Position numbers and translations under genes: made by a program
Notes under the pieces: generated by a model
Seen by the model: the letters and a program-made list of their open reading frames with translations, nothing else
Told to the model about the DNA's origin: nothing
The model's database searches: none
NCBI GenBank assembly: GCA_017303905.1
Contig: JAFLBH010000001.1
Span: 1,403,809-1,467,808 of the forward strand
Length of the DNA: 64,000 bases
Source of the DNA: Bacteroidota bacterium
GTDB lineage: Bacteria > Bacteroidota > Bacteroidia > B-17B0 > Aurantibacillaceae
Reading direction: 5' to 3'
Shown here: positions 6,546 through 59,501 of the stretch, one piece after another
How the letters are laid out: each line of letters begins with the position of its first letter
Position numbering within the stretch: the first letter of the stretch is position 1

Positions 6546-7046
6546 ATGAAATTAAACGAAATTCAAGATCTCATTAAGTTTGTTTCCAAAAGCGGCGTAA
6601 ACGAAGTAGAACTGGAAACGAAGGAGATTAAAATCGTTATTAAAACAGGAAAGCAAAACGGACCGGTAATGGTTCAGGCAGCTCCTCAAATGATGCAGGC
6701 AGCTCCAACTCAAATGGTAACTGCAGCCCCTGTTGCTAACCCAACTCCTGTTACAGAAACAAAAGCTACACCAACACCTACTAACACAGGTGCCGACGAA
6801 TCAAAGTACATTACCATTAAATCCCCAATGATTGGTACTTTCTATCGCTCACCGGGTCCTGATAAACCTTCATTCGTAAACGTTGGCGATGAGGTAAACG
6901 CAGGAAAGACTGTTTGTATCATTGAAGCTATGAAGTTGTTCAATGAAATCGAAAGCGACATCAAAGGTAAAATTGTTAAGGTATTGGTTAACGACGCTAC
7001 TCCGGTAGAATACGATCAGCCTTTATTCTTAGTAGATCCAAATTAA
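6546..7046 (+). CDS. accB: Biotin carboxyl carrier protein of acetyl-CoA carboxylase
   Basis: Carries the biotin that is carboxylated by AccC and then used to make malonyl-CoA, the first step of fatty-acid synthesis. 166 residues. The N-terminal helix region (MKLNEIQDLIKFVSKSG) is typical of AccB, followed by a Pro/Ala/Thr-rich flexible linker (about 40-83) and the biotinyl domain (about 88-166). The biotinylation motif EAMKL is present with Lys130 as the modified residue. It is followed by accC after 67 bases that hold a 7-base repeat element. Confidence 0.97.
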   Translation: MKLNEIQDLIKFVSKSGVNEVELETKEIKIVIKTGKQNGPVMVQAAPQMMQAAPTQMVTAAPVANPTPVTETKATPTPTNTGADESKYITIKSPMIGTFYRSPGPDKPSFVNVGDEVNAGKTVCIIEAMKLFNEIESDIKGKIVKVLVNDATPVEYDQPLFLVDPN

Positions 7047-7110
7047 TTAGTTTAATGTTTCATGTTCTTGGATAAACCTTGAACCTTAAATTTTAAACTT
7101 TAAACCTAAC
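7047..7110 (+). repeat. Intergenic element of 7-base repeats between accB and accC
   Basis: The right half (7074-7108) is five back-to-back 7-mers of consensus AAACYTT with few deviations. The left half (7047-7067) is three 7-mers near NATGTTT, roughly the reverse complement, so the RNA could fold as an imperfect hairpin. It ends 5 bases before the accC start codon. A similar element precedes carB (56603-56679). Confidence 0.6.
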
Positions 7111-7113
7111 ATT

Positions 7114-8454
7114 ATGTTTAAAAAGATATTAATTGCCAATAGGGGAGAGATTGCCTTGCGCATTATCAGAACCTGTCGTGAAATGGGTATCAAAACGGTT
7201 GCTGTTTATTCAACGGCCGATAAAGAATCCTTGCACGTAAAATTTGCTGATGAAGCAGTTTGTATTGGTCCGCCGCCAAGTAAGGAAAGTTACCTTAATA
7301 TGGCTAACATTATCGCGGCTGCCGAAATTACAAATGCTGATGCTATTCATCCGGGTTATGGTTTTTTAAGTGAAAACGCGAAGTTTTCTGAAATCTGTCG
7401 CCAGAATAAAATAAAATTTATTGGTGCTTCACCCGAAATGATTAATCAGATGGGTGATAAAAGTAATGCTAAATCAACTATGATTAAAGCCGGCGTTCCT
7501 TGTGTTCCCGGTTCTGAAGGATTATTGAAAGATTTAGCAGAAGCTAAAGAAACCGCCAAAGGTATAGGATACCCTGTTATCATTAAAGCAACTGCAGGTG
7601 GTGGTGGTCGTGGTATGCGTATCATTTGGAAAGAAGAAGATTTAGACACTCAATTTGAATCAGCAAGTAAGGAGGCTGAAGCAGCTTTCGGAAATGGAGC
7701 CATGTATATGGAGAAATTTATCGAAGAGCCGCGCCATATCGAAATTCAAATTGTAGGTGATCAATACGGTAAAGCATGTCACCTAAGTGAGCGTGATTGC
7801 AGTATTCAGCGTCGTCACCAGAAATTAGTAGAAGAAACTCCTTCTCCTTTCATGACGCCTGAATTGCGTGATGCCATGGGTGAAGCTGCAATTAAGGCAG
7901 CCTTGTCTATCGGATACGAAGGTGTTGGTACAGTTGAGTTTTTAGTGGATAAGCACCGCAACTTTTACTTCATGGAAATGAATACACGTATTCAGGTAGA
8001 ACATCCTATCACCGAAGAAGTAATTGATTACGATTTAATCCGCGAACAAATCCTAGTGGCAGCAGGCGTTCCTATTTCGGGTAAAAATTATTATCCGCAG
8101 TTACACGCCATCGAATGCCGTATCAATGCCGAAAATCCATTTATGAATTTCGTTCCTTCACCTGGTAAAATAACTACTTTACATACACCGGGCGGACATG
8201 GAGTTCGTGTAGATTCGCATGTTTACAGTGGTTATTCAATTCCACCGAATTACGATAGTATGATTGGTAAATTAATTACTGTTGCACAAACACGCGAAGA
8301 AGCATTGGCAAAAATGCACCGTGCTCTGAGCGAATATGTGATTGAAGGTATTAAAACTACGATTCCATTCCACTTAAAGCTTATGCAAAATGAAGACTTT
8401 AAGAAAGGAAATTATACAACTAAGTTCCTGGAAACCTGGGATTTTAAAAGCTAA
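7114..8454 (+). CDS. accC: Biotin carboxylase subunit of acetyl-CoA carboxylase
   Basis: ATP-dependent carboxylation of biotin on AccB using bicarbonate. 446 residues, the usual length. It has the N-terminal preATP-grasp domain ([19 protein letters not shown]), the ATP-grasp domain with the glycine-rich loop [11 protein letters not shown], the catalytic [11 protein letters not shown] segment and the biotin carboxylase C-terminal domain ([12 protein letters not shown]). It is likely co-transcribed with accB from 6513. The transferase subunits accA and accD are not in the window. A GAAA-tetraloop terminator follows directly. Confidence 0.98.
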
Positions 8455-47585: not shown

Positions 47586-47990
47586 ATGGCAAGTATAAAT
47601 TCTTTTGAGGAGTTGGAATGTTGGAAGGAAGCAGTGGTGTTGAGAAAAAGAATTCGTACAATAACTAAATCATTTCCGGCCGATGAAAAATATAAATTAA
47701 CAGATCAGCTAGTAAGAGCATCGCGGTCAGTTACTGCAAATATAGCTGAAGGTTATGGTAGATTTCATTATTTAGAAAATTCAAAATTTTGCAGAAACTC
47801 ACGTGGTTCTTTGACTGAGATAATAGATCATCTTATTTTGGCCGAAGAAGAGGGTTATATCACGATGGAAGAATTAGTCGAATTGAAAACTGAGACCAAT
47901 AAGTGCATCAGGATATTAAACGGTTATATCAATTATTTGCAAAAGGCCGAAAAAGCAAAGAAGTCAGCTCCTGCAACAAGTAACAAATAA
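47586..47990 (+). CDS. Four-helix-bundle protein (23S rRNA intervening-sequence protein family)
   Basis: 134 residues. Typical family features are the start FEELECWKEAVVLRKRI, LTDQLVRASRSVTANIAEGYGR, FCRNSRGSLTEIIDHL and LILAEEEGYI. The family was first seen inside intervening sequences of 23S rRNA genes, but most copies, like this one, are found elsewhere and their function is unknown; copies close to polysaccharide gene clusters are common in Bacteroidota. The last 15 residues are Lys/Ala/Pro-rich. It is 56 bases after rfbB. Confidence 0.9.
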   Translation: MASINSFEELECWKEAVVLRKRIRTITKSFPADEKYKLTDQLVRASRSVTANIAEGYGRFHYLENSKFCRNSRGSLTEIIDHLILAEEEGYITMEELVELKTETNKCIRILNGYINYLQKAEKAKKSAPATSNK

Positions 47991-48012
47991 CCAAAAACAG
48001 TTAACCTATAAT

Positions 48013-48375
48013 ATGGAAAAGAAAGTTTGTTTAGATTGCGGTGAGCCGATTAAAGGTAGGGCAGACAAAAAATTCTGCAATGATATTTGCCGGAATTCCT
48101 ATAACAATAAACTTAATAGCGATACCAACAATCACGTTCGAAACATTAATAACATCCTTCGTAAAAACAGAAGGATCATGGAGGATTTATTAACCGGAAC
48201 TACGGTGACGGTTTCCAAACAAAAACTATCATCAGCAGGATTTAATTTTAATTATTTCACCAATCTCGTGAAAACGAAAGAAAGTAAGTTGTATTACTTC
48301 TGTTATGAATTTGGTTATTTACCCCTGGAAAACGAAAAAATTCTCTTAGTAAAGAGCAAAAAAGAAGCCGATTAA
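48013..48375 (+). CDS. Small zinc-ribbon-like protein of unknown function
   Basis: 120 residues, no signal peptide. The N-terminus has a four-cysteine cluster, Cys6-x-x-Cys9 and Cys22-x-x-x-Cys26, in the setting CLDCGEPIKGRADKKFCND and CRNSYNN, a pattern of treble-clef or zinc-ribbon folds such as DUF2116. The rest is Lys/Asn-rich helical with ILRKNRRIMEDLL and a conserved-looking FGYLPLENEKILLVK end. Zinc binding is inferred. It is 22 bases after the four-helix protein. Its stop codon sits inside a terminator hairpin. Confidence 0.75.
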   Translation: MEKKVCLDCGEPIKGRADKKFCNDICRNSYNNKLNSDTNNHVRNINNILRKNRRIMEDLLTGTTVTVSKQKLSSAGFNFNYFTNLVKTKESKLYYFCYEFGYLPLENEKILLVKSKKEAD

Positions 48376-54100: not shown

Positions 54101-56491
54101 ATGAAAACAAACTTTATAATTTCATTTGACGCATTGGGTAAAAACGATGTGGCTCTTGTTGGAGGTAAGAATGCCTCTCTTGGCGAAATGGCTAATAATT
54201 TAAAGTCGAAGGGAATTCACGTTCCCAATGGTTTTGCAACAACAGCTTCTGCATTTCAATACTTTTTACAATACAATAAGCTTAATCAACCTTTATACGA
54301 TTTGTTTTTAAGGTTAGATACCAAAGATTTTTCTAATCTGTCGCAAATAGGAGAACAGGCACGAATGCTTGTTAGGAACGCGGAAATTCCTTCAGATTTT
54401 AAATCGGAAATTATCTCTGCCTATAAAGAGCTTTGCGGAAACGAAGGTCGTGAGGTGGATGTAGCTGTCAGGAGCAGTGCCACCGCTGAAGATTTGCCAA
54501 CGGCTAGTTTTGCCGGTCAACACGATTCGTTTTTAAATATTAGCGGAGCTGAAGATGTAGTAAACGCAGTTCATCGCTGTTTTGTTTCTTTGTTTAACAA
54601 CCGTGCCATCAAATACCGTGAGGATAACGGATTCGAACAAATGAAAGTGTATTTATCGGCAGGTGTGCAATTGATGGTACGTTCCGATTTATCTTCGGCC
54701 GGTGTAATATTTACGCTAGAACCCGAATCGGGATTTAAAGATGTTATTGTCATATCCGGTGTATGGGGCTTAGGAGAAAACATTGTACAAGGCGCAGTAA
54801 CTCCCGATGAATTTCATGTTTTCAAAACAACGTTACAGCAAAACAAGAATGCTATTATCTCCAAAAAACTGGGAACGAAGGCGAAAACAATGGTGTATTC
54901 TACCACTGATAAATCAAGTATTGTGAATACAGATACGCCTGAAGAAAAAAGAAAGCAATGGGTGTTAAATGATGAAGAAATTACTCAATTGGCGAGCTGG
55001 AGTTACACCATTGAGCAACATTATAAAATGCCTATGGATATTGAATGGGCTAAAGATGGAATGACAGGAAAACTTTTCATAGTGCAAGCACGCCCCGAAA
55101 CAGTACATTCTAAAAAGGACCCGTATTTAAAGACTGAATACATTGTAAAAGAAAAAGGAACAATTTTAACTAAGGGTAATGCCATTGGCTCCGGAATTGC
55201 TTCCGGCAAAGCGCGTATTATTATGTCGAGTGCTGATGCAGATAAATTGCAGGAGGGTGAAGTGCTTGTGACGGATATTACAAATCCGGACTGGGATCCT
55301 ATTCTTAAAAAAGCAGCGGCAATTATCACCAATAAAGGAGGAAGAACTTCTCATGCAGCCATTGTGGCGCGCGAAGTAGGTGCGGTGGCTGTAGTTGGAA
55401 CAGGTGATGCTACCGAAAAAATAAAGGATGGTATGATTGTGACCGTTAGTTGCGCACAGGGAAAAACAGGTTTTGTATACAATGGAAAATTAAACTGGAC
55501 TGAGCAAAATCTGGATTTTAAAAACATGACCATGCCAGAAACGCAGCCAATGATGATATTAGGTGATCCTGAGAAAGCCTATGGATATTCGTTTTATCCG
55601 AACAAGGGAATTGGACTTATGCGCTTGGAGTTTATCATTAATGGTGCCATTAAAATTCACCCGATGGCTTTGGTGAACTATCCGAATTTAAAAGATAATG
55701 AAGCCAAAAAACATATAGATGAAATTACCTATCAATACTCTGACAAGAAGGAGTATTTTATTGATAAATTATCGCAAGCTGTTGGTACAATTGCAGCAGC
55801 GTTTTATCCCAAGGATGTGATTGTGCGAATGAGCGATTTCAAAACCAACGAATATGCGAATTTGATTGGTGGAAAAGAGTTTGAGCCGGAAGAGGAAAAT
55901 CCTATGATTGGTTTCAGAGGGGCTTCGCGTTATTATAACGAGCGTTACCGCGAAGGTTTTAAATTAGAGTGCGAAGCCATGAAACGGGTGCGAAATGAAA
56001 TGGGCTTAACCAATGTGAAATTGATGATTCCGTTTTGCAGAACGGTTGAAGAAGGAAAGAAAGTTGTGGAATTGATGAATACTTATGGTTTAAAACGCGG
56101 CGATAATGGATTAGAAGTTTATGTGATGGCTGAAATTCCAAGTAATGTTATTCTGGCAAAGGAATTCTCGGAAGTGTTTGATGGATTTTCTATCGGCTCC
56201 AACGATTTAACCCAGTTAACTCTAGGTTTAGACAGAGATTCTGCCATTGTGAGTGATTTGTTTGACGAGAATAATAAAGCGGTAAAAACTATGATTGCCA
56301 CTGTTATTAAATCTGCTAAGGAAAATGGCGCAAAAATTGGATTATGCGGACAAGCGCCAAGCGATTATCCGGAGTTTGCACAATTTTTAGTGGAGCAGGG
56401 CATCAACAGCATTTCATATAATCCGGATGCGCTCTTGAAAGGAATAGAAAATATGGTAAAGGCCGAGGAGAAACTAAAGACAAAGCATTAA
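54101..56491 (+). CDS. ppsA: Phosphoenolpyruvate synthase
   Basis: Makes phosphoenolpyruvate from pyruvate and ATP (water as phosphate acceptor) in gluconeogenesis. 796 residues from ATG 54101 (MKTNFIISFDALGKNDVALV); in-frame ATG 54083 and GTG 54062 are possible but would add residues with no match to the family. The N-terminal ATP-grasp domain starts with VGGKNASLGEM and has AVRSSATAEDLPTASFAGQ, the phosphohistidine domain has GGRTSHAAIVAREVG with His418, and the C-terminal PEP domain shows GFRGASRYY, MIPFCRTVEE and GLCGQAPSDYPE. Regulation by a DUF299 kinase is known in the family, not seen here. Confidence 0.95.
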   Translation: MKTNFIISFDALGKNDVALVGGKNASLGEMANNLKSKGIHVPNGFATTASAFQYFLQYNKLNQPLYDLFLRLDTKDFSNLSQIGEQARMLVRNAEIPSDFKSEIISAYKELCGNEGREVDVAVRSSATAEDLPTASFAGQHDSFLNISGAEDVVNAVHRCFVSLFNNRAIKYREDNGFEQMKVYLSAGVQLMVRSDLSSAGVIFTLEPESGFKDVIVISGVWGLGENIVQGAVTPDEFHVFKTTLQQNKNAIISKKLGTKAKTMVYSTTDKSSIVNTDTPEEKRKQWVLNDEEITQLASWSYTIEQHYKMPMDIEWAKDGMTGKLFIVQARPETVHSKKDPYLKTEYIVKEKGTILTKGNAIGSGIASGKARIIMSSADADKLQEGEVLVTDITNPDWDPILKKAAAIITNKGGRTSHAAIVAREVGAVAVVGTGDATEKIKDGMIVTVSCAQGKTGFVYNGKLNWTEQNLDFKNMTMPETQPMMILGDPEKAYGYSFYPNKGIGLMRLEFIINGAIKIHPMALVNYPNLKDNEAKKHIDEITYQYSDKKEYFIDKLSQAVGTIAAAFYPKDVIVRMSDFKTNEYANLIGGKEFEPEEENPMIGFRGASRYYNERYREGFKLECEAMKRVRNEMGLTNVKLMIPFCRTVEEGKKVVELMNTYGLKRGDNGLEVYVMAEIPSNVILAKEFSEVFDGFSIGSNDLTQLTLGLDRDSAIVSDLFDENNKAVKTMIATVIKSAKENGAKIGLCGQAPSDYPEFAQFLVEQGINSISYNPDALLKGIENMVKAEEKLKTKH

Positions 56492-56602
56492 TCCATTTAG
56501 AATCTGACTAAGCGCCTGAGAATTATTTTATTAATAATTCGTTAATATCTTGTTTTTCCTAACAGGGGCTGAGAGCCTATCTTTACGCGATTTAATTTGT
56601 TC

Positions 56603-56679
56603 GGAGTTTGTAGTTAGTAGATCGTAGAAATTTCTTCTAGAACCCGACTACGAACTATGAACTCTAAACTATCAACTCG
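56603..56679 (+). repeat. Intergenic element of 7-base repeats before carB
   Basis: The left part (56605-56625) is three 7-mers close to AGTTNGT. The right part (56648-56679) is four to five 7-mers close to ACTNTNA, roughly its reverse complement, so the RNA could fold on itself. It ends 5 bases before the carB ATG. It resembles the accB-accC element. Confidence 0.55.
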
Positions 56680-56684
56680 TAGAT

Positions 56685-59501
56685 ATGCCAAAAGATAGCT
56701 CAATAAAGTCAGTTTTAATTATAGGTTCCGGTCCGATTATTATCGGACAAGCTTGTGAATTTGATTATTCCGGTTCTCAAGCCGCCAGAAGTTTACGTGA
56801 AGAAGGAATTGAAGTGTCGCTTATCAATAGTAATCCGGCGACTATCATGACAGACAAAGTAACTGCTGATCATGTATACTTGTGGCCGTTAGAAGTAAAA
56901 TCTATCGTTAAGATTTTAGAAGAACGCAAAATTGACGCTGTACTTCCAACTATGGGCGGACAAACCGCATTGAATCTCGCGTTGAAATGCGATGATATGG
57001 GTATTTGGAAGAAGTATGGTGTAAAGATGATTGGTGTGGATATTGATGCTATTAAAGTCACTGAAGACCGTGATTTATTCCGTGCACGCATGGAAGAAAT
57101 CGGAGTAGGCATGGCACCAAGTAAAATTGCAAAAAGTTTCTTAGAGGGTAAATCTATTGCACAGGAGTTTGGTTTCCCTTTGGTAATTCGTCCTTCATTT
57201 ACTTTAGGAGGAAGCGGAGGTTCAGTTGTATACGAAAAGGAAAATTTTGATACACTATTAAACCGTGGTTTACAAACTTCACCTATTCATGAAGTATTGA
57301 TTGATAAAGCGGTTTTGGGTTGGAAGGAATATGAGTTAGAATTATTGCGCGATAAAAACGATAACGTTGCTATTATCTGTTCCATTGAAAACTTTGATCC
57401 GATGGGCGTGCATACAGGCGACAGTATCACTGTTGCGCCGGCTATGACTTTAAGTGATAGTACATATCAAAAGATGCGTACGATGGCTATCAAAATGATG
57501 CGCAGTATCGGAAATTTCGCCGGAGGATGTAATGTGCAGTTTGCGGTAAGTAATGATGAAAAAGAAGAAATCATCGCGATTGAAATTAATCCACGTGTAT
57601 CTCGTTCATCTGCTTTAGCAAGTAAAGCCACCGGTTATCCAATTGCGCGCATTGCTTCTAAATTAGCCATTGGTTATCATTTGGATGAATTGATTAATCA
57701 AATTACAAAATCTACTTCGGCATATTTCGAGCCAACTTTGGATTACGTAATCGTAAAAATCCCTCGTTGGAACTTTGATAAATTTAAAGGCACCAACCGT
57801 GAGTTAGGTTTCCAGATGAAATCGGTAGGTGAGGTAATGGCTATTGGAAGAAGTTTCCAGGAAGCATTGCAAAAAGCCTGTCAGAGTTTAGAGATTAAAC
57901 GTAATGGTTTGGGTGCTGATGGAAAAGAAAACACGAATCAGGCAGAATTATTAAAAGGGTTAGAACGCCCAAGCTGGAATCGATTGTTTATGATTTATGA
58001 TGCCATGAAATTAGGCATCTCCATCAAAACTATTCAGAAGCTGACGCAAATTGATATGTGGTTCCTTGAGCAAATCGAACAAATGATTGCCATGGAGAAA
58101 GAGATTGAGAAACACAATCTTTCTAGTCTTCCAAAAGATTTATTGTACGAAGCAAAACAAAAAGGATATGCCGATCGTCAGATAGCGCATTTGTTGCGTT
58201 GCCTCGAAAGTGAAGTTTATAAAAAGAGAAATGAATTCGGTATTAAGCGTGTATATAAATTAGTAGATACCTGTGCTGCCGAGTTTGAAGCAAAAACACC
58301 TTACTACTATTCAACTTTTGAAGATGAAAATGAAAGTGTTCGCAGTGAAAGAAAGAAAGTAGTGATTTTAGGAAGCGGTCCTAACCGTATCGGACAAGGT
58401 ATCGAATTTGATTACAGTTGTGTGCATGGCGTATTGGCAGCTAAAGAATGCGGTTATGAAACGATTATGATTAACTGTAATCCGGAAACCGTTAGTACCG
58501 ATTTCAGTACTGCAGATAAATTATATTTTGAACCGGTATTCTGGGAACATATTTACGACATCATTCAGCACGAAAAACCGGAAGGCGTAATTGTGCAATT
58601 AGGCGGACAAACCGCATTAAAGCTCGCAGAGAAATTAGATAAATACGGAATTAAAATCATCGGTACCGATTTCAAATCTTTGGATTTGGCGGAAGACAGA
58701 GGAAGCTTCTCTACTTTATTAAAAGAAAACAATATTCCATATCCTAAATTTGGTGTAATCACTGATGCGGAGGAAGCAATTAATCTCTCTAAGGAATTAG
58801 GTTTCCCATTGTTGGTTCGTCCGAGCTACGTGTTAGGCGGACAAAGCATGAAGATTGTGATTAATGAAGAAGAGCTGGAACAACATGTTGTAAAATTATT
58901 GAACGATTTGCCGGATAATAAAGTTTTACTGGATCACTTCCTCGATGGAGCTATCGAAGCGGAAGCGGATGCTATTTGCGACGGAAAAGATGTTTACATC
59001 ATCGGCATCATGGAGCATATTGAGCCGGCAGGTATTCACTCCGGAGATTCTTATGCTGTATTGCCTCCGTTTGATTTGAGCGAAAACGTCATTAAGCAAA
59101 TTGAACAACACACAAAAACCATCGCTTTAGCTTTAAATACAGTTGGTTTAATTAACATTCAGTTTGCAGTGAAGGATGAAATCGTTTACATCATTGAAGC
59201 GAATCCGCGTGCAAGTCGTACAGTACCGTTTATTGCTAAAGCTTACGATGAGCCTTATGTGAATTACGCAACAAAGGTGATGTTACGTGATAAAATGGTG
59301 AAAGACTTCAAATTCAATCCACGTAAAAAAGGATATGCGATAAAGATTCCTGTATTCAGCTATGAAAAATTCCCTGATATTCAGAAGGAGTTAGGTCCTG
59401 AAATGAAGAGTACAGGTGAGGCGATTTATTTCATCGATGATTTATACGATGAATATTTTCAGAACATTTACAGCGAGAGAAATCTATACCTGAGCAAATA
59501 A
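56685..59501 (+). CDS. carB: Carbamoyl-phosphate synthase large subunit, short form
   Basis: Makes carbamoyl phosphate from glutamine-derived ammonia, bicarbonate and two ATP, for arginine and pyrimidine synthesis. 938 residues. Both ATP-grasp halves are complete (SVLIIGSGPIIIGQACEFDY and KVVILGSGPNRIGQGIEFDY; FTLGGSGG and YVLGGQSM). It stops after ELGPEMKSTGEAIYFIDDLYDEYF, so the C-terminal MGS-like allosteric domain (about 130 residues in the E. coli enzyme) is missing. This is seen in other members of the phylum and suggests loss of UMP and ornithine control. The small subunit carA is not in the window. Confidence 0.97.
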   Translation: MPKDSSIKSVLIIGSGPIIIGQACEFDYSGSQAARSLREEGIEVSLINSNPATIMTDKVTADHVYLWPLEVKSIVKILEERKIDAVLPTMGGQTALNLALKCDDMGIWKKYGVKMIGVDIDAIKVTEDRDLFRARMEEIGVGMAPSKIAKSFLEGKSIAQEFGFPLVIRPSFTLGGSGGSVVYEKENFDTLLNRGLQTSPIHEVLIDKAVLGWKEYELELLRDKNDNVAIICSIENFDPMGVHTGDSITVAPAMTLSDSTYQKMRTMAIKMMRSIGNFAGGCNVQFAVSNDEKEEIIAIEINPRVSRSSALASKATGYPIARIASKLAIGYHLDELINQITKSTSAYFEPTLDYVIVKIPRWNFDKFKGTNRELGFQMKSVGEVMAIGRSFQEALQKACQSLEIKRNGLGADGKENTNQAELLKGLERPSWNRLFMIYDAMKLGISIKTIQKLTQIDMWFLEQIEQMIAMEKEIEKHNLSSLPKDLLYEAKQKGYADRQIAHLLRCLESEVYKKRNEFGIKRVYKLVDTCAAEFEAKTPYYYSTFEDENESVRSERKKVVILGSGPNRIGQGIEFDYSCVHGVLAAKECGYETIMINCNPETVSTDFSTADKLYFEPVFWEHIYDIIQHEKPEGVIVQLGGQTALKLAEKLDKYGIKIIGTDFKSLDLAEDRGSFSTLLKENNIPYPKFGVITDAEEAINLSKELGFPLLVRPSYVLGGQSMKIVINEEELEQHVVKLLNDLPDNKVLLDHFLDGAIEAEADAICDGKDVYIIGIMEHIEPAGIHSGDSYAVLPPFDLSENVIKQIEQHTKTIALALNTVGLINIQFAVKDEIVYIIEANPRASRTVPFIAKAYDEPYVNYATKVMLRDKMVKDFKFNPRKKGYAIKIPVFSYEKFPDIQKELGPEMKSTGEAIYFIDDLYDEYFQNIYSERNLYLSK

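Follow-up and report, generated by a model that had tools for sequence, protein, structure and literature searches.

Seven-base-phased hairpins of changing sequence before carB, accC and other genes in a Bacteroidota genome

Translation starts in Bacteroidota largely lack a Shine-Dalgarno sequence, and how expression is set within their operons is poorly known. Elsewhere, the STRR of cyanobacteria are heptanucleotide repeats, tandem 7-mers lying between genes; RAYT transposases are associated with REP palindromes; and the 5' stabiliser stem-loops of Escherichia coli, such as that of ompA, are leader hairpins in which structure matters more than sequence. Immediately 5' of start codons, heptamers of the sequence TAACTGA have been described in Beggiatoaceae, in Cyanobacteria and in five Bacteroidetes (MacGregor 2015, PMC4679880). 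In the parts of that paper used here, they are direct repeats without predicted structure, with one inverted case; 7-nt indels are reported, and S1- or cold-shock-type OB folds are proposed as their readers. REP and GTAG-tagged palindromes are treated in PMC3733652. According to the sections of PMC9723704 drawn on here, the Flavo-1 RNA motif is a structured element of Bacteroidota leaders, and Bacteroidota promoters have a -7 box with the consensus TAnnTTTG, positioned at -12 to -5 from the transcript start.

Our analysis of the window, the whole stretch of 64,000 nucleotides from a member of the Aurantibacillaceae, confirmed that a phased hairpin with two arms of imperfect 7-base units lies directly 5' of carB, the gene for the carbamoyl-phosphate synthase large chain (56685–59501, forward strand; Pfam CPSase_L_D1/D2/D3). 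Read directly, the sequence from 56599 to 56677 is made up of GTTNNNN units on the left and AACNNNN units on the right, and can be folded into a hairpin. The left (5') arm (56599–56628, forward strand) has GTT units starting at 56599, 56606 and 56613 (GTTCGGA, GTTTGTA and GTTAGTA), followed by a degenerate fourth unit, GATCGTA, and the bases GA. After an approximate loop region placed from the sequence and the RNA fold (56629–56642, forward strand), the right (3') arm (56643–56677, forward strand), delimited by AAC units, TRF and the RNA fold, contains units (AACTATG, AACTCTA and AACTATC) starting at 56653, 56660, 56667 and 56674, the last AACT ending at 56677, 7 bases short of the ATG at 56685. 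The RNA fold of -24.6 kcal/mol (z -3.2 versus dinucleotide shuffles) has a predicted outer stem in which 56603–56615 pairs with 56653–56665. TRF reports a period of 7 with 4.4 copies at 56647–56677, and the pattern CGAACTN2GAACTN3AACT (at most two mismatches) has four matches versus 0.12 expected, all four inside the carB element. In-phase GTT/AAC hairpins with at least three unit pairs gave two matches in the window versus none in 100 window shuffles; we read these as two registers of one carB element, because the de-overlapped list holds this element alone. The 7-base-repeat arms that a sequence-only reading had described before carB are therefore upheld. Its span of 56603–56679 contains the element and, as it stated, leaves 5 bases before the ATG, but the left arm begins 4 bases earlier than it had proposed.

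A predicted Bacteroidota -7 promoter box, TATCTTTA (56578–56585, forward strand; consensus TAnnTTTG at -12 to -5), suggests a carB transcript start near 56590. The hairpin would therefore occupy most of the predicted 95-nt carB leader, starting about 9 nt past the predicted transcript start. The box is kept 5' of carB in many relatives. We also looked for a sigma-70 -35/-10 promoter at carB and found none, the Bacteroidota -7 box fitting instead. No intrinsic terminator (a GC stem followed by a T run) was detected in 56450–56750, and the carB element matched no family among the Rfam covariance models. In the element-free carB leader of L033 the distance from the box to the ATG is 55, and that of genome G006 looks similar by eye. 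A TTTGTTTTTTTG-like stretch 3' of the -7 box is common to element-free carB leaders (L033, L045, L306 and others), in which a TTAATATCTT-like block lies 5' of the box.

A sister element, delimited from the sequence and the RNA fold, fills the 67-base gap (7047–7113) between a biotin carboxyl carrier gene (accB-like, 6546–7046; Biotin_lipoyl) and accC, encoding biotin carboxylase (7114–8454; Pfam), all on the forward strand. This element is real as well: folding, which had been suggested as a check on both leaders, gave a z of -2.5 here in addition to the carB value. Another array in the window has a single arm of five AACNNNN units (47975–48005, forward strand) and ends 7 nt before an ORF at 48013. 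Tandem repeats with periods of 9 to 33 bases are also present at 1147–1304 and 1732–1852, within an ORF (706–2178) that probably encodes a repetitive protein.

A search for further examples, also suggested by the sequence-only reading, found 30 phased elements in 692 kb of the genome from which the window derives, some of it retrieved around arrays that a genome-wide search had located. In this whole genome the pattern AACN4AACN4AACN4AAC has 45 matches versus 1 for the backward-read pattern, and NAACTN3 repeated three times has 50 versus 4 for its control. The paired pattern AGTTN3AGTT...AACTN3AACT is found in six of the eight genomes of the genus, with 71 matches per strand in total versus 2 for the reversed control. 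In-phase hairpins of at least three pairs with period 7 and polarity from a GTT 5' arm to an AAC 3' arm numbered 14 in the genome itself, 26 in genome G025 and 12 in the carB loci, while 0 to 2 were obtained with any other trinucleotide, with the polarity reversed, or at periods of 5, 6 and 8 to 11; all these counts include alternative registers. The near restriction of GTT...AAC hairpins to period 7 and to that polarity supports the proposal that the carB and accC elements form one class, free in sequence and locked in phase. The AAC/GTT core is shared across genera and across the taxonomic class while four positions vary; the loops are non-homologous between elements, and the copies have no common sequence. 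A set of 35 oriented hairpins, selected for arm complementarity, has a mean fold z of -4.1.

The best period (range 4–20, z > 4.5) in 403 intergenic gaps of 50–250 bases was 7 (10 gaps), 8 (3), 14 (7) or 16 (3) and no other, but the share of phased gaps is not representative because 11 of the 13 period-7/8 gaps come from the 22 G025 stretches in the set, and that genome was chosen for its abundance of AAC runs. Read by eye, octad units consist of AATT or AATC and four free bases, and some parB gaps have an ACT core. In a sample of the phylum, a stricter pattern occurred in 40 of 148 genomes. Of the 37 genomes belonging to the same class 21 had it, as did 19 of the 111 from other classes, among which the excess over control is weaker; in one genome of the class (G073) control matches were as many as true ones. 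Genome G025, a distant member of the class, has more than 1500 AAC-heptad matches, many of which consist of AAACCCG-type units arranged in long pure arms (L212, L214, L219 and L221). The window's own genome has a nearly pure AACTCCT array of 12 AAC units (L166 12252–12331; C1 near 1398251).

Most of the 30 elements (22) lie in tandem gaps, with 4 in divergent gaps, 1 in a convergent gap and 3 inside ORFs called by a simple longest-ORF script. The ATG of a long ORF lies within 15 nt of 12 of the 22 tandem-gap elements, versus 0.32 expected for random placement of a 50-nt element in tandem gaps. One heptad hairpin (L154 6306–6329; C6 near 21305 of the same genome) lies beside apparent tRNA sequence instead of a protein gene. 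Since carB and accC both carry an element in the window, a tie to biotin- or bicarbonate-dependent ligases had been proposed. This is contradicted by the many kinds of downstream genes genome-wide: according to Pfam, for which 10 of the downstream proteins were scanned, elements precede genes for GroEL, DUF58, phosphatidylserine decarboxylase, peptide deformylase (def), cytochrome c assembly, SecE, a ParA-type ATPase, ParB, SAICAR synthase (purC) and FtsZ, as well as CarB and AccC. We regard the tie to ligases as hardly credible.

At carB, a two-armed element occupies the same place in four of the eight genus genomes examined (G000, G007, G005 and G004), and the leaders of G006, G001, G002 and G003 lack it. 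G006 is the nearest genome, with 94% DNA identity over the carB gene region, yet is without the element. In a survey by eye of the upstream sequences available for 79 of 80 carB relatives, L042, L054, L075 and L089 showed two-armed heptads, L034 had one arm alone, and AAGTT/AACTT arms of a looser kind were seen in L055, L057, L064, L065 and L087; some of these genomes are also in the genus set. A second dispersed hairpin-like repeat, of conserved sequence beginning TCGYGATGGCGAGTA, has three exact matches in the window's own genome (C2:126136, C3:291089 and C5:108097) and five in the eight genus genomes, including G002 C63:10262 and G001 C180:4918; in G002 it occupies the carB leader, where other species carry the heptad element.

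Presence or absence at carB between sister species, together with many copies per genome, would suit a mobile repeat of the MITE or REP type inserted 5' of carB. We consider this very improbable, as no sequence or loop is common to the copies and the difference between carB leaders is not a clean insertion. A REP/RAYT system was likewise rejected: the conserved palindrome is absent, a DNA search of the genome with the carB element giving a single further match, a partial one over 33 of 95 bases, and the loci of the two Y1 transposase (Y1_Tnp) genes contain no phased element.

At accC, each of the seven genus loci that were read has a hairpin phased at 7 or 8 bases, in part of unrelated sequence; an eighth match, L322, is a paralogue. 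Conservation of position and 7-base phasing in close relatives, which the sequence-only reading had made decisive, was thus found throughout at accC but in only half of the genus at carB. Across the family, a phased hairpin (fold z < -2 plus period-7/8 z > 3 in a gap) is present in 17 of 27 accB–accC gaps, mostly with unrelated sequence, versus 1 of 77 control gaps (1 of 37 unbiased gaps of the own genome and 0 of 40 carB-locus gaps; controls from the window, L168–L182 and carB loci L033–L080). The p value of ~1e-11 is without correction for relatedness, and such values overstate independence because family members are related. These 27 usable gaps derive from 31 loci given, of which 29 were readable, and form 19 groups that show no similarity to one another; a phased hairpin is present in 12 of these groups. 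Two sets fetched around arrays (16 of 58 and 3 of 26 phased) were left out of the gap test. Phased hairpins also occur at parA–parB, in 11 of 23 readable loci (of 30). The left arms of the accC elements of G000 and G006 differ by two heptads. The accB–accC gap is the clearest case of the class recurring with replaced sequence.

Base-by-base selection of an RNA hairpin would be expected to leave more G-U than A-C mismatches on the transcribed strand. Mismatches in the arms showed no bias towards an RNA strand, with G-U at 22 versus A-C at 20 and no excess of G-U. Sense and antisense folds were the more stable in 16 and 18 of 35 hairpins, with one tie, and in 12 and 15 of 27 at accC, revealing no strand preference in either set. 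Pairing at the free positions was 0.524 within elements versus 0.392 between elements, a value reached by none of 1000 shuffles, whereas in-register pairing (0.516) was no better than after shuffling the unit order inside the element (0.529). The arms therefore share a vocabulary and not a precise register. A shared vocabulary is what slippage combined with arm-to-arm copying would give. The strand and register results speak against an RNA structure tuned in detail and leave room for a structure-only hairpin. That the same gaps have been filled repeatedly is an argument in favour of some function.

These results bear on a DNA-level origin without function, in which slippage of 7- or 8-base units and template switching between inverted arms would create phased palindromes in tolerant gaps, and the proximity to start codons would merely reflect short gaps and absent Shine-Dalgarno constraints. 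It agrees with the missing strand bias, the vocabulary shared without register, the heptad-sized indel between the accC elements of G000 and G006, the non-homologous loops and the slippage-like AACTCCT array, which makes it look as if some elements had arisen recently by slippage. It does not account for the refilling of the same gaps, at 17/27 for accB–accC and 11/23 for parA–parB against 1/77 for controls, and slippage alone leaves the fixed, class-wide GTT-to-AAC polarity without explanation. We take this origin to be a serious possibility, albeit a doubtful one.

Our tentative preference, held with somewhat less than half of our confidence, is that the element is a hairpin of mRNA leaders and intercistronic spacers, serving as a spacer or stabiliser; it ranks above a functionless DNA-level product because the strand and register nulls were weighed against the repeated gap filling. 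The stem-loop would fill the non-coding stretch between the promoter, or the upstream stop codon, and the start codon: at carB most of the predicted 5' untranslated region, and at accC the gap 3' of accB. Such a hairpin would work at the mRNA level through its structure alone, and most likely would protect the message 3' of it from degradation following initiation or intercistronic cleavage; alternatively, it may set the relative expression of neighbouring genes. Units would be gained and lost through 7-nt (or 8-nt) slippage, and the likeness of the arms could be maintained by copying between them. Against a role in mRNA would stand the missing strand bias and register, the absence at carB in half of the genus, the three of 30 elements in ORFs and the single convergent one.

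A further explanation is a binding array, in which a protein, either an S1- or cold-shock-type OB fold or a DNA-binding protein, would recognise AAC at 7-nt intervals, with the two inverted arms forming arrays of opposite orientation. The constancy of the AAC/GTT core beside four variable positions, across genera and class, is consistent with this, as is the occurrence of single-arm arrays 5' of start codons, and the same idea is argued for the related TAACTGA heptamer in the consulted part of PMC4679880. However, some accC and parB gaps use AATT/AATC octads or ACT-core heptads, so that a single reader would have to accommodate two pitches, and we think a binding array improbable. The RRM protein RbpB was considered as a reader and set aside, the passages of the RbpB paper used here containing no heptad motif.

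More broadly, Bacteroidia may maintain gene-gap hairpins defined by pitch (7 or 8 nt) and GTT-to-AAC polarity, refilling the same junctions with new versions; this generalisation is speculative, and we would sooner expect it to fail than to hold. If such a class of pitch and polarity is true, it implies a dedicated pitch reader or an active hairpin-writing process; if the elements are mutational, a process of 7/8-nt slippage and palindrome copying shapes intergenic DNA across a class. Hairpins before housekeeping genes that are conserved in pitch and place and free in sequence would escape alignment-based RNA searches, and the recurrence at accB–accC makes a putative function directly testable.

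A literature search for the degenerate inverted-arm form, from which subscription journals were mostly excluded, found no description, and a text search for five concrete heptad strings found none. Among the known systems, E. coli stabilisers of the ompA type resemble our putative leader hairpin in that structure may count for more than sequence, but they lack phased units. Cyanobacterial STRR are likewise intergenic 7-mers, but are nearly exact direct repeats and are not known to have paired arms. Flavo-1, as presented in the consulted part of PMC9723704, is also a structured Bacteroidota leader, whereas the carB element matches no Rfam family. REPs are, like the present elements, short dispersed intergenic palindromes, but those covered by the parts of PMC3733652 used here share a sequence and a terminal tetranucleotide, which our elements do not. 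The TAACTGA repeats, as far as the consulted sections of PMC4679880 describe them, are alike in having 7-nt head-to-tail units that are mostly intergenic, end a few nt before start codons and follow no gene-function pattern. Read in another phase, TAACTGA is AACTGAT and hence falls within the AACNNNN pattern; TAACTGA-like units are also present in other genomes (G022, L244). TAACTGA is, however, one fixed heptamer in structure-free direct repeats, while the present class has degenerate units of period 7 or 8 in paired inverted arms, as in the carB fold, and, unlike TAACTGA in those sections, it shows a turnover of sequence in a given gap from one species to the next. The TAACTGA system is thus, on the sections consulted, the closest one published, and the present class is broader.
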